Shown here piece by piece: positions 29,148-33,192 of a stretch of DNA of 64,000 nucleotides (within the stretch, counting starts at the first letter, position 1; every line of letters starts with the position of its first letter). Under the pieces are notes generated by a model. The model worked only from the letters and a program-made list of their open reading frames with translations, was not told the DNA's origin and searched no databases. This DNA is from Thermobifida cellulosilytica TB100 (GTDB lineage: Bacteria > Actinomycetota > Actinomycetes > Streptosporangiales > Streptosporangiaceae). A program made the position numbers and the translations under genes. Location: the NCBI RefSeq assembly GCF_001517975.1, contig NZ_KQ950180.1, positions 459,853-523,852 on the forward strand, read 5' to 3'.

Positions 29148-29280
29148 ACGTCTCCTCCCGGCCCCCGGTCCGACACCGGGGGCCGCCCCTCCCCCGCACC
29201 CCTTTTTCTCCTCTCCCGCACCCCTTCTGATCTGCAAAGATGAGATGATCTGCGATTCGCGAGAAAGGCCGCTCTTGTCC

Positions 29281-30045
29281 ATGACTGCGCAGAAGGCAGG
29301 ACGACCGCGCCATGTCGGTCGACACCGACGGCGCCGACTGCCGCTGGGGACGATCGCGGGGCTGGTGGTTGCACTGTCCGGCCTGGGGGTCGTGTCGGCC
29401 AACGTGTTCCCCCTGGAGCCGTCCGAACCGGCGTCGGCGGTCCCCGCCACCTCACAGGAGGAGTCCCGCTCCGCCGCCTCTCCGTCGCCCCTGCCGCCGC
29501 TGCTGCGCTCGGTGGAGCGGGAGGTGGCCAGCGCGAGCGGGAAGCTGCGCGTGGTCGAGGGGGAGAGCCAGGTGGCCGGCGACGGGCCGCTCCTGCGCTA
29601 CCTGGTGGAGGTGGAGGAGGGCCTTCCCGGCGACCCCGCGGACTTCGCCGCCGCGGTGGAGCAGGTGCTGGGCGACCCCCGGGGATGGACCCACGACGGC
29701 TCGCGCTCCCTACAGCGGGTGGACGAGGGCCCGGTGGACTTCCGGGTCGTCCTGGCCTCCCCGGAGACCGTGGACGAGCACTGCGCGCCGCTACAGACCG
29801 ACGGCTACGTCTCCTGCTTCGCGGACGGCCGCGCGATGATCAACCAGAACCGCTGGGTCTCGGGGGTGCCGCACTTCGAGGGGGACCTGGAGACCTACCG
29901 CACGTACGTGATCAACCACGAGGTGGGCCACGCCCTGGGCAACGGCCACGTGGACTGCCCCGCTCCGGGCGAGCCGGCGCCGGTCATGCAGCAGCAGACC
30001 TTCGGCCTCCAGGGCTGCACGAAGAACGGATGGGTCAAGCCCTGA
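29281..30045 (+). CDS. DUF3152 family membrane-anchored metzincin-like protein
   Basis: A 254-residue protein with a basic N-terminus (MTAQKAGRPRHVGRHRRRR), a signal-anchor helix, a Ser/Pro-rich spacer and a C-terminal domain bearing HEVGHALGNGH. This is the full HExxHxxGxxH zinc site of metzincin metalloproteases, with a downstream Met in APVMQQQTFG that could be the Met-turn. DUF3152 proteins are common in actinobacteria, and their proteolytic activity is untested as far as I know. The start is uncertain: ATG 29245 and TTG 29275 are in the same frame; GAAAGG at about 29263-29268 supports 29275 or 29281. Confidence 0.83.
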   Translation: MTAQKAGRPRHVGRHRRRRLPLGTIAGLVVALSGLGVVSANVFPLEPSEPASAVPATSQEESRSAASPSPLPPLLRSVEREVASASGKLRVVEGESQVAGDGPLLRYLVEVEEGLPGDPADFAAAVEQVLGDPRGWTHDGSRSLQRVDEGPVDFRVVLASPETVDEHCAPLQTDGYVSCFADGRAMINQNRWVSGVPHFEGDLETYRTYVINHEVGHALGNGHVDCPAPGEPAPVMQQQTFGLQGCTKNGWVKP

Positions 30046-30176: not shown

Positions 30177-31760
30177 TCAGCCCTGGGTGTAGCCCCGGCG
30201 CAGCAGCCCGTAGGTGAGGGCCTGCTCCAGGGCGATCCACGAGGCGTCGATGACGTTCTCGCCGACGCCGACGGTGGTCCACTCGTCGCGGCCGTCGGTG
30301 GACTCGATGAGCACCCGAGTCACCGCGTCGGTGCCGGAGGTGCCCTCCAGGATGCGCACCTTGTAGTCGGTGAGCTCCATGGTGGCCAGGTCGGGGTAGA
30401 CGCTCTCCAGAGCCGAGCGCAGCGCCCGGTCCAGCGCGTTGACCGGCCCGTTGCCCTCTCCGGTGGCGATCACCCGCTCGCCCTTGACGTACAGCTTCAC
30501 CGTGGCCTCGCTGGCGTTGCTGCCGTCGGGGCGCCGCTCGGAGATCGCCCGCCACGACTCCACCTCGAAGTAGCGGACCGGCTGCCCGATCTCCTCGCGC
30601 AGCAGCAGCTCCAGGGAGGCGTCGGCCGCCTCGAAGCTGTACCCGGCCAGCTCCATGTCCTTGACCCGCGTCACGATCCGGCCCAGGGTCTCGCGGTCGC
30701 CGGACAGGTCCACGCCGAGTTCCTTGGCCTTGAGCTCCACCGAGGCGCGTCCGGCCATGTCGGAGACCAGCATGCGCATGTCGTTGCCGACCTGGGCCGG
30801 GTCGATGTGCTGGTACAGGTCGGGGTCGACCTTGATGGCGGAGGCGTGCAGCCCGGCCTTGTGCGCGAAGGCGGAGATGCCGACGTAGGGCTGGTGGGTG
30901 GCCGGGGCGATGTTGGCGATCTCGGCGATGGCCTGGGAGACGCGGGTCATCTCGCGCAGGCAGCCCTCGGGCAGCACGTCGCGACCGCGCTTGAGCACCA
31001 GGGCGGGGACGACGGAGAACAGGTTGGCGTTGCCGACCCGCTCGCCATAGCCGTTGGCGGTGCACTGCACGTGGGTGGCGCCCGCCTCGACGGCGGCCAG
31101 CGTGTTGGCCACCGCGCAGCCGGTGTCGTCCTGGGCGTGGATGCCCAGCCTTGCCCCGGTGGCCTGGCGGACCTCGGTGACGATCTGGAAGACGTCGGAG
31201 GGAAGCATGCCGCCGTTGGTGTCGCACAGCACGACCACGGAGGCCCCCGCCTCGGCCGCGGTGCGCACCACGTCGAGCGCGTATCCGGGATTGTGCCGGT
31301 AGCCGTCGAAGAAGTGCTCGCAGTCCACGAACACCCGCTGCCCCTGCTCCCGCAGGAAGGTGACGGTGTCGGCGATCATCGCGAGGTTCTCGTCGAGGGT
31401 GGTGCGCAGCGCCAGTTCGACGTGGCGGTCGTCGCTCTTGGCGACCAGGGTGACCACGGGGGCGCCGGAGTCGCGCAGCGCCAGCACCTGGGGGTCCTCG
31501 GCGGCCCGCGTCCCGGCCCGCCGGGTCGAGCCGAACGCGGTGAGTTGGGCATGTTTCAGTGGCAGCTCTGTTCGGGCTCGCTGGAAGAACTCCGTGTCCT
31601 TCGGGTTCGCGCCGGGCCAGCCGCCCTCGATGAATCCCACTCCGAACTCGTCGAGCAGCTTCGCGATCGCGAGCTTGTCGGAGACGGTGAGGTTGATGCC
31701 CTCGCGCTGTGCGCCGTCCCGCAGTGTGGTGTCGAATACGTGGAAACTGTCGTCCAGCAT
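30177..31760 (-). CDS. cimA: Citramalate synthase
   Basis: A 527-residue enzyme of the 2-isopropylmalate/homocitrate synthase family condensing pyruvate and acetyl-CoA to (R)-citramalate, giving 2-oxobutyrate for isoleucine without threonine deaminase. The TIM barrel starts FDTTLRDGAQREGINLTV (residues 9-26); GIHAQDDTGCAVANTLAAVE and THVQCTANGYGERVGNANL are catalytic-domain motifs; a LeuA-type dimer/allosteric domain fills about residues 400-527. Assignment as CimA over LeuA rests on DTTLRDGAQREG and overall length. ATG 31758-31760 has GGGAG about 9 nt upstream. A leader-peptide attenuator with Ile codons precedes it, which fits an isoleucine pathway gene. Confidence 0.9.
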   Translation of the reverse strand: MLDDSFHVFDTTLRDGAQREGINLTVSDKLAIAKLLDEFGVGFIEGGWPGANPKDTEFFQRARTELPLKHAQLTAFGSTRRAGTRAAEDPQVLALRDSGAPVVTLVAKSDDRHVELALRTTLDENLAMIADTVTFLREQGQRVFVDCEHFFDGYRHNPGYALDVVRTAAEAGASVVVLCDTNGGMLPSDVFQIVTEVRQATGARLGIHAQDDTGCAVANTLAAVEAGATHVQCTANGYGERVGNANLFSVVPALVLKRGRDVLPEGCLREMTRVSQAIAEIANIAPATHQPYVGISAFAHKAGLHASAIKVDPDLYQHIDPAQVGNDMRMLVSDMAGRASVELKAKELGVDLSGDRETLGRIVTRVKDMELAGYSFEAADASLELLLREEIGQPVRYFEVESWRAISERRPDGSNASEATVKLYVKGERVIATGEGNGPVNALDRALRSALESVYPDLATMELTDYKVRILEGTSGTDAVTRVLIESTDGRDEWTTVGVGENVIDASWIALEQALTYGLLRRGYTQG

Positions 31761-31815
31761 GTCGGAAACTCCCGAGTCCGGTCTGTGTGCCTGTGACCGT
31801 GCCGCCCGCACCAAC

Positions 31816-31909
31816 AAAAAAAGACCCCTCGTGGACACGAGAGGTCAGCGCGCTGGCGTGGTCCGTTTCAGCCAGCGCGCCCGACGATAATGATCGCCTG
31901 AGGCAGCAT
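31816..31909 (-). promoter_or_regulatory. Isoleucine-responsive transcription attenuator upstream of cimA
   Basis: Reading the minus strand: leader peptide gene (31909 to 31868), a 10-bp hairpin whose first arm GCGCGCTGGC (31880-31871) overlaps the leader end and stop and whose second arm is at 31857-31848, then a terminator with 11-bp stem at 31846-31823 (one G-U) followed by seven T (31822-31816). In the hairpin loop, GGACCACG can pair with CGTGTCC in the terminator's left arm and loop, an antiterminator possible only when the first hairpin is blocked by a ribosome stalled at Ile codons. This is the classical trp/ilv attenuation layout; function is inferred from structure. Confidence 0.82.
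31868..31909 (-). CDS. cimA attenuator leader peptide
   Basis: Thirteen codons from ATG 31907-31909 to TGA 31868-31870, reading MLPQAIIIVGRAG. The three consecutive Ile codons and one Val are just upstream of the first hairpin arm. No strong ribosome-binding site is seen. The 11 bases TTGATGACATG at the start are matched by TTGATGACGTG at the ilvB leader start, which supports both as real. Confidence 0.75.
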   Translation of the reverse strand: MLPQAIIIVGRAG

Positions 31910-32013
31910 GTCATCAAGTGTGCCACACCCGCCCCACCTGATGCGCCCCGGGTTCCCCGGTGCGGTCCGTCCGGTGCGGCGGCGGGAGCACTCCCCGGGG
32001 CGGGCGGCGGGCC

Positions 32014-32047
32014 CCTCCCCGGTCCCGTGGGTGTCGGACCGGGGAGG
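32014..32047 (-). terminator. Terminator of ilvE
   Basis: A perfect 12-bp stem (CCTCCCCGGTCC at 32014-32025, complement 32036-32047) with a 10-nt loop, 24 bp past the ilvE stop on the minus strand. Confidence 0.6.
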
Positions 32048-32070
32048 ACGCTGTCGGGCGGACCGGTCCG

Positions 32071-33192
32071 CTAGCGGTCGAACCTGCGGACCCACCCGTG
32101 GCTGTCGGGGCGGGTGCCGTACTGGAGGCCGACGAGTTCCTCACGCAGCCGCAGGGTGACCGGGCCGGGCTTGCCGTCGGCGATCTGGAACTCGCCCTTG
32201 CTGCTCTTGACGTGCGAGACGGGGGTGATGACCGCGGCGGTGCCGCAGGCGAACACCTCGGTGAGTTCCCCGCTGGTCGCGGCCTCACGCCACTGGTCGG
32301 TGGAGATGCGCCCCTCCTCGACGGGGAGGCCGAGCTCGGGGGCCAGCTTCAGCAGCGAGTCCCGGGTGATGCCGGGCAGCAGGGTGCCGGTCAGCTCCGG
32401 GGTGAGCAGGCGGGCCTCCGGGCCGGAGCCGAAGACGAAGAAGAGGTTCATGCCGCCCATCTCCTCGACCCAGCGGTGCTCCACGGCGTCGAGCCAGACG
32501 ACCTGGTCGCAGCCCTGCTCGACGGCCTGGGCCTGGGCCAGGAAGCTGGCCGCGTAGTTGCCGCCGAACTTGGCCGCGCCGGTGCCGCCGGGCGCGGCAC
32601 GGGTGTAGTCCTCGCACAGCCAGACCGTGACCGGCTTGACCCCGCCCGAGAAGTACGCCCCCGACGGCGAGGCGATGAGGACGAAGAGGTAGCTGCTGGA
32701 CGGGCTGTTGACGCCGAGGCCGACGTCGGTGGAGATCATGAAGGGGCGCAGGTAGAGGCTGGTGTCGGCCTGGGAGGGGACCCAGTCGCCGTCGTGGGCG
32801 AGCAGGGTCTCGATCGCGCCGACGAACAGCTCCTCGGGGAGTTCGGGCATGGCCATGCGCGCGGCGCTGCGGTTGAAGCGCGCGGCGTTGGCCTCGGGCC
32901 GGAAGCAGGCGATGGTGCCGTCGGGGTGCCGGTAGGCCTTGAGGCCCTCGAAGACCTCCTGCGCGTAGTGCAGGACCGAGGTGGCCGGGTCCAGCGACAG
33001 CGGCCCGTAGGGTTCGAGCTTCGCGTCGTGCCAGCCCTTCTCGGCGGTGTAGCGGATGGTGACCATGTGGTCGGTGAAGACTTTGCCGAACCCGGGGTTC
33101 TCCAGGATCGCCTCTCGCTCCTGCGGGGTTCTCCGCCGGGTGGAGAGTTGGATGTCGAACGCCAACCCGCTTGTGGTGGTGTCGTTGCTCAT
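32071..33192 (-). CDS. ilvE: Branched-chain amino acid aminotransferase
   Basis: A 373-residue class IV PLP transaminase doing the last step of Leu, Ile and Val synthesis and the first of their breakdown. The PLP lysine is in [15 protein letters not shown]; other landmarks are [45 protein letters not shown] and [15 protein letters not shown] chose the ATG at 33190-33192 ([13 protein letters not shown]); a longer reading to 33339 is unsupported. GAGAGG lies about 11 nt upstream. It is 208 bp downstream of leuB with a terminator hairpin between them, so it probably has its own promoter. Confidence 0.95.

Follow-up and report, generated by a model that had tools for sequence, protein, structure and literature searches.

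The classical trp, ilv and thr attenuators of enterobacteria combine regulatory codons, competing hairpins and a terminator. In Actinobacteria, leader-peptide attenuators have been described before ilvB, leuA, leuS, trp and cys genes. Citramalate synthase, the product of cimA, opens a threonine-independent route to isoleucine.

The ilvL leader of Streptomyces lividans, MRTRILVLGKRVG, was reported to be transcribed leaderless, and other leaders of this species were mapped as leaderless as well (PMC8079986). The ilvB-II motif of Corynebacterium consists of a P1 hairpin and a terminator P2, and the proposed antiterminator is formed by the P1 loop with the right shoulder of P2 (PMC10272879). Mutational work supports a three-hairpin attenuator for C. 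glutamicum ilvBNC (PMC11857589), and disruption of the terminator of M. tuberculosis ilvB1 altered the phenotype studied (PMC13236596). According to one survey, changing the regulatory codons in the ilvB leader of S. coelicolor left regulation unaffected (PMC1262725), and therefore codon-driven attenuation is not to be taken for granted in this phylum.

A leader peptide and two hairpins upstream of cimA

The window analyzed here is a stretch of 64,000 nucleotides from Thermobifida cellulosilytica TB100. The cimA gene, which is the regulated gene in our proposal, is located on its minus strand (30177-31760, with the ATG at 31760), and its product scores 661.5 bits in the citramalate synthase model TIGR00977, whose cut-off is 450 (E = 6.7e-199). 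On the same strand, ilvE (ending at 32071), leuB, serA and then ilvC and ilvB are found 5' of cimA, the last two identified by reading the sequence. A strong hairpin with no T tract was observed at 32014-32050, just 3' of ilvE and ahead of the cimA leader. The gene convergent with cimA (29245-30045, plus strand) encodes a DUF3152 protein (Pfam PF11350) of unknown function, and DUF3152-like sequence adjoins cimA in several relatives too (e.g., L013, L014 and L018).

A 13-codon leader, a 10-bp hairpin and an intrinsic terminator occupy positions 31909-31816 of the minus strand, 55 nt 5' of cimA. The leader, MLPQAIIIVGRAG (31909-31868), runs from ATG CTG CCT CAG GCG through three consecutive Ile codons, ATC ATT ATC (31894-31886), which we propose as the sensor, to GTC GGG CGC GCT GGC and the stop codon TGA. 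Hairpin 1 (31880-31848) is formed by the arms GCGCGCTGGC (31880-31871) and GCCAGCGCGC (31857-31848), which give 10 bp. Its 5' arm overlaps leader codons 10-13, the stop codon follows directly after this arm, and its loop contains GGACC (31864-31860), a candidate antiterminator strand whose possible partners are GUCC in the terminator loop or GGUC in the terminator 3' arm. One base separates hairpin 1 from the terminator hairpin (31846-31823), whose arms GACCTCTCGT (31846-31837) and ACGAGGGGTC (31832-31823) form 10 bp and possibly an 11th G-C pair, followed by a T7 tract (31822-31816). The 13-codon frame with its three Ile codons, the 10-bp hairpin at the leader end and the second hairpin followed by seven T before cimA had all been named in the original prediction, and all of them were found at the locus.

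The region 31800-31910 folded at -59.1 kcal/mol (z = -5.1), and none of 200 shuffles was equally stable. At the gathering score, the Rfam covariance models detected only tRNAs within the window and assigned the element to neither the T-box nor any other family; the Rfam scan of the relatives gave only unrelated, sub-threshold matches.

A putative extended -10 element, TGTGGCACACT, is located at 31927-31917 on the minus strand, and a TGTGGCAnACT-like element is present in relatives. The start codon followed this -10 box by 6-10 nt in all 92 leaders in which both were parsed by rule. Since such a spacing leaves no room for a ribosome-binding site, the cimA leader is probably translated leaderless, and the predicted transcription start coincides with the leader start codon or lies no more than about 2 nt from it.

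Conservation among near relatives

Relatives were gathered by their cimA protein, and the DNA upstream of each cimA was then read. A leader, a hairpin and a terminator were found 5' of cimA in nearly all tested relatives, including Thermobifida, Nocardiopsis, Streptomonospora, Streptosporangiaceae and Streptomyces. Leaders of the MPSQVIIIVRRAG type are found in Thermobifida, Nocardiopsis and Streptomonospora, MFYGLLIIGRRAG-like leaders in other Streptosporangiaceae, MTSGRIIIGRRVG in a small divergent group and MLSFATIIGSRRAGPQ in Streptomyces. Across 64 aligned elements, hairpin 1 was 99.5% paired with compensatory change at 6 pairs, and the terminator was 100% paired with compensatory change at 2 pairs; the terminator apex is GT/AC in Nocardiopsis and Thermobifida and AC/GT in most other Streptosporangiaceae. 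Hairpin 1 contains an invariant GCGC/GCGC, and near-invariant letters are found in the terminator arm. Aligning the cimA upstream regions of Thermobifida, Nocardiopsis and Streptomyces had been put forward as a check on the original prediction, and in this comparison the Ile codons were kept and covariation was seen in both hairpins. This conservation is the strongest evidence against the element having arisen by chance.

About 68 nt 5' of the leader start, an inverted repeat GTCTC-N7-GAGAC was present in 42 of 91 Streptosporangiaceae/Nocardiopsis elements, and none was seen in the window. The repeat sits upstream of the promoter (e.g., L009, L011, L012, L015, L021 and L026), and a half-site of it, CATCCTGAGAC, occurs in Streptomyces. 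It looks like an operator. A site for the IclR-type regulator NdgR was considered as its identity and rejected, as the published 15-bp NdgR motif does not match.

Distribution across Actinomycetes

A covariance model was built from the 64 near-home elements and run on 394 Actinomycetes genomes from 122 genera. In the genome to which the window belongs, one strong site was found, and it is the cimA element. The element was detected in 199 of the 394 genomes and in 71 of the 122 genera, a spread of about 30 families and about 70 genera of the class. Among the genomes with a cimA match 194 of 312 carried it, compared with 5 of 82 without such a match (two lists drawn on the same 394 genomes). At 40 distant sites the downstream gene was read, and nearly all were cimA, judged by the sequence that follows; the exceptions were one leuS and two short proteins of unknown family. 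A further 20 cimA genes, the majority of which the model had not detected, were inspected by eye; about half had diverged but clearly related leaders such as MTPAVVIIG, MTAVIIII and MSTSTIIIA, and no leader was seen at the remaining half, which include a family of very small genomes. Several cimA-bearing groups do not have the element, and the whole unit is absent where cimA directly follows ilvE (L278, L293 and L295).

The pairing figures of the wide set (n = 85) are flattered because its alignment was fitted to the model: 96.9% paired overall, double changes at 13 of 20 pairs, 7 compensatory pairs in hairpin 1, and a terminator 99.3% paired with 6, while none of 500 shuffles did as well. An open scan for covariation gave column pairs of the two hairpins in all of its first eight ranks. 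Two genomes of one family (L218 and L219, family f17) have leaders MFALVIIM and MFTPRIII, and here the gene after the element encodes a protein of 103-107 aa, for which no Pfam match was found.

Sister elements before other branched-chain genes

Related leaders were found before other genes. Those before ilvB contain Leu, Val and Ile codons, in which GTA and CTT recur, and those before leuA and leuS contain Leu codons. With a wider covariance model, ilvB elements were also detected both in Streptomyces and beyond the class, where a cimA-like gene, called by reading its sequence, has the leader MSSQPAKPITTTAIIIC (L307). The cimA-trained model did not find the ilvB leader in the genome of the window even at E values up to 10.

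The ilvB leader of the window (40587-40537, minus strand) has mixed Ile, Leu and Val codons, and just 3' of it lie a G+C-rich, terminator-like hairpin (about 40515-40480) and T6. The sequence GTA CTT, often CTC GTA CTT, is shared by ilvB leaders across classes (L299, L301, L306, L315 and the window's own at 40587-40537), and GTA and CTT appear to be rarely used in these genomes, which are rich in G+C. The models trained here also retrieved leucine leader attenuators from two families, MRTGLLLTGPR (L208) and MRTGLLLTEPR (L305); the former precedes leuS, identified by Pfam, and the latter appears to as well, by sequence.

Isoleucine codons of the leader

Each of the 83 leaders parsed in the wide set contained Ile codons, and AUU occurred at least once in 82 of them. 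The rest of the leader peptide varies freely, Ile making up 23% of the residues and Leu 6%. AUU accounted for 108 of 191 Ile codons in the leaders before hairpin 1, compared with 3 of 1766 in the cimA genes of relatives and 1 of 124 in neighbouring genes of the window. Since 89% of the non-Ile leader codons have G or C at the third base, the enrichment of AUU does not simply reflect A+T richness. The last Ile codon begins 6-14 nt, mostly 8-11 nt, 5' of hairpin 1, and the usual footprint of a ribosome at the Ile codons would in most cases reach the first few bases of this hairpin.

One family (L204, L206 and L207) has cimA leaders with a single Ile codon followed by Thr codons (CITT and LITH), hinting at joint sensing of threonine.

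Proposed mechanism and the switching problem

The observed leader, Ile codons, two hairpins, terminator and gene, with their geometry and conservation, lead us to propose a ribosome-mediated transcription attenuator, by which cimA would be controlled by the supply of charged isoleucine tRNA. The conservation, the AUU enrichment, the probably leaderless start and the gene-matched sister elements together make isoleucine attenuation of cimA very likely. An isoleucine leader-peptide attenuator of cimA was the core of the original prediction, and it is strongly supported by the Ile codons, the hairpins and their position across about 70 genera.

In the proposed mechanism, transcription would begin on the leader start codon or beside it, and the first ribosome would thus load at the 5' end of the RNA. 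With ample isoleucine, the ribosome would pass the Ile codons and reach the stop codon, the terminator would form, and RNA polymerase would halt ahead of cimA. Under isoleucine shortage, the ribosome would wait at the Ile codons, usually including at least one rare AUU, and would cover the start of the hairpin 1 5' arm. The loop and 3' arm of hairpin 1, thereby freed, would disturb the terminator, and cimA would be transcribed.

Hairpin 1 and the terminator can coexist, and therefore a third pairing is needed for switching. For this step we prefer a pairing in which the C-rich loop and the freed 3' arm of hairpin 1 would capture the G-rich 3' arm of the terminator; the pairing proposed for the ilvB-II motif of Corynebacterium is a better precedent for it than for the antiterminator of the original prediction (PMC10272879). 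The hairpin 1 loops of the wide set are C-rich (44% C and 19% G), with more C than G in 57 of its shorter loops and less in 6. The mean pairing energy of the loop and hairpin 1 3' arm with the terminator 3' arm is -12.2 kcal/mol, compared with -6.2 kcal/mol for the 5' arm, and in many Nocardiopsis relatives GGACCCC pairs with GGGGTCT. The loop:3'-arm pairing did not surpass that of loops shuffled at constant composition (mean Z -0.13 to -0.30). The window's own version of it is weak, at -7.6 kcal/mol versus -15.3 kcal/mol for the terminator.

The antiterminator of the original prediction was a different one, in which CGTGTCC, at the apex of the terminator 5' arm, is bound by GGACCACG from the hairpin 1 loop. 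Apart from one bulge, these stretches are complementary in the window, the duplex of the hairpin 1 loop and 3' arm with the terminator 5' arm reaches -8.4 kcal/mol, and GGAC:GUCC, the core, shows 87.5% pairing across the 64 aligned elements. However, none of its four pairs showed compensatory change in that set, the covariation scan found no GGAC:GUCC pair, and the core is clade-limited: in other lineages the loop (GCCC, ATGCC, ATCC or ACCC) or the partner differs, or GGAC is missing. Moreover, when the hairpin 1 5' arm was masked, the structures that could form before emergence of the terminator 3' arm were no stabler than shuffles (mean Z +0.87 to +0.94). We regard this antiterminator as unlikely, and capture of the terminator 3' arm by the C-rich loop as a candidate at least as plausible. 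The claim that the GGACCACG pairing strictly requires hairpin 1 to be blocked was overstated, as 7 of the 8 letters of GGACCACG are located in the hairpin 1 loop. Neither candidate has covariation support or stability beyond that of shuffles.

Three other pairings were found. A hairpin of the Ile codons within the leader appeared in many single folds, but its register shifted and the consensus did not contain it; it was rejected as a conserved element. A perfect 7-bp match between GGUCUGC of the leader and GCAGACC at the start of the terminator, seen in many Streptosporangiaceae, was rejected as an antiterminator because a stalled ribosome would cover it and because it is lost in several relatives. 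A recurrent local hairpin of the hairpin 1 GCGC with the terminator apex is weak.

The probable signal

A leader that answers to branched-chain amino acids in general, instead of isoleucine alone, might be suggested by the Leu or Val codons which adjoin Ile in many leaders (LLII, VIII). Only Ile, however, occurs in every parsed leader and sits beside hairpin 1, Leu being far rarer among the residues, and the mixed ilvB leader of the window (FLILVLG) is unlike its cimA leader. The leader residues track the gene that follows, with Ile before cimA, Leu/Val/Ile before ilvB and Leu before leuA and leuS. This match is the strongest argument that isoleucine, and not branched-chain amino acids generally, is sensed, and we consider the general response improbable to a marked degree.

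Alternatively, termination might depend on an RNA-bound protein or small molecule and not on translation of the leader. The invariant GCGC/GCGC of hairpin 1 and the near-invariant letters of the terminator arm exceed the needs of pairing, and the ineffective codon changes reported for an ilvB leader (PMC1262725) point in the same direction. Such control would nevertheless not account for Ile codons that are kept as the rest of the peptide changes, for leader residues that fit the controlled gene or for a rare-codon choice confined to Ile, and no Rfam family was matched; we find it very unlikely. That the hairpin and T tract merely terminate the upstream ilvE, with an incidental small ORF, can hardly be right: ilvE does end upstream on the same strand, at 32071, but it has its own strong hairpin there, albeit with no T tract, the leader ORF, Ile codons, -10 box and hairpin 1 are kept with the terminator while remoter flanks differ, the unit disappears as a whole where cimA follows ilvE directly, and the AUU enrichment of the leaders counts against it.

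Isoleucine attenuation of cimA is thus retained as our reading. More tentatively, and with some doubt, the elements may be seen as a hitherto undescribed family of leaderless, rare-codon isoleucine attenuators that act on the committed step of isoleucine synthesis and switch by loop capture instead of a classical 2:3 hairpin, with ilvB, leuA, leuS and other sisters, in Actinomycetes and beyond.

Significance

From the conservation of a gene-specific sensor over about 70 genera, isoleucine control is to be expected in bacteria that are used in industry or make antibiotics, and the cimA attenuator would be a ready target of deregulation for isoleucine production. Together with its ilvB and leuS sisters, it offers a test set for leaderless attenuators with no visible strong antiterminator. 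Since AUU is so strongly enriched, the old idea that rare codons tune attenuators becomes directly testable.

Comparison with known systems

The literature searched, which left out most subscription papers, contained no description of the control of cimA expression in actinomycetes and no report of cimA attenuation, whether by T-box or leader. The accessible sections of a survey which had Thermobifida fusca among its genomes do not mention cimA (PMC1262725), and a list of eight S. lividans leaders includes no cimA attenuator (PMC8079986). Term searches found none in the main text of a 50-genome RNA search (PMC11109978) or in a survey of premature terminators (PMC2965389).

Among the most similar known systems are the actinobacterial ilvB attenuators, which likewise have a short branched-chain-rich leader overlapping a hairpin and then a terminator (PMC1262725). 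The element described here differs from them in preceding cimA and in a leader with Ile and no obligatory Val or Leu. The ilvB-II motif shares the plan of hairpin and terminator and the proposed pairing of loop and shoulder, the antiterminator here being a candidate, but that motif is limited to Corynebacterium ilvB, whereas ours precedes cimA. The LEU element and the leuS attenuators of Actinobacteria also place branched-chain metabolism under leader-peptide control; they differ in their leucine codons and their genes, and the LEU element is a pseudoknot with no terminator (PMC1262725). In contrast to the trp, ilv and thr attenuators of enterobacteria, no strong 2:3 antiterminator was found here, the start is probably leaderless, and the leader has no Shine-Dalgarno site. 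We file the cimA attenuator as a new, widespread case of leader-peptide attenuation, a known type of mechanism.
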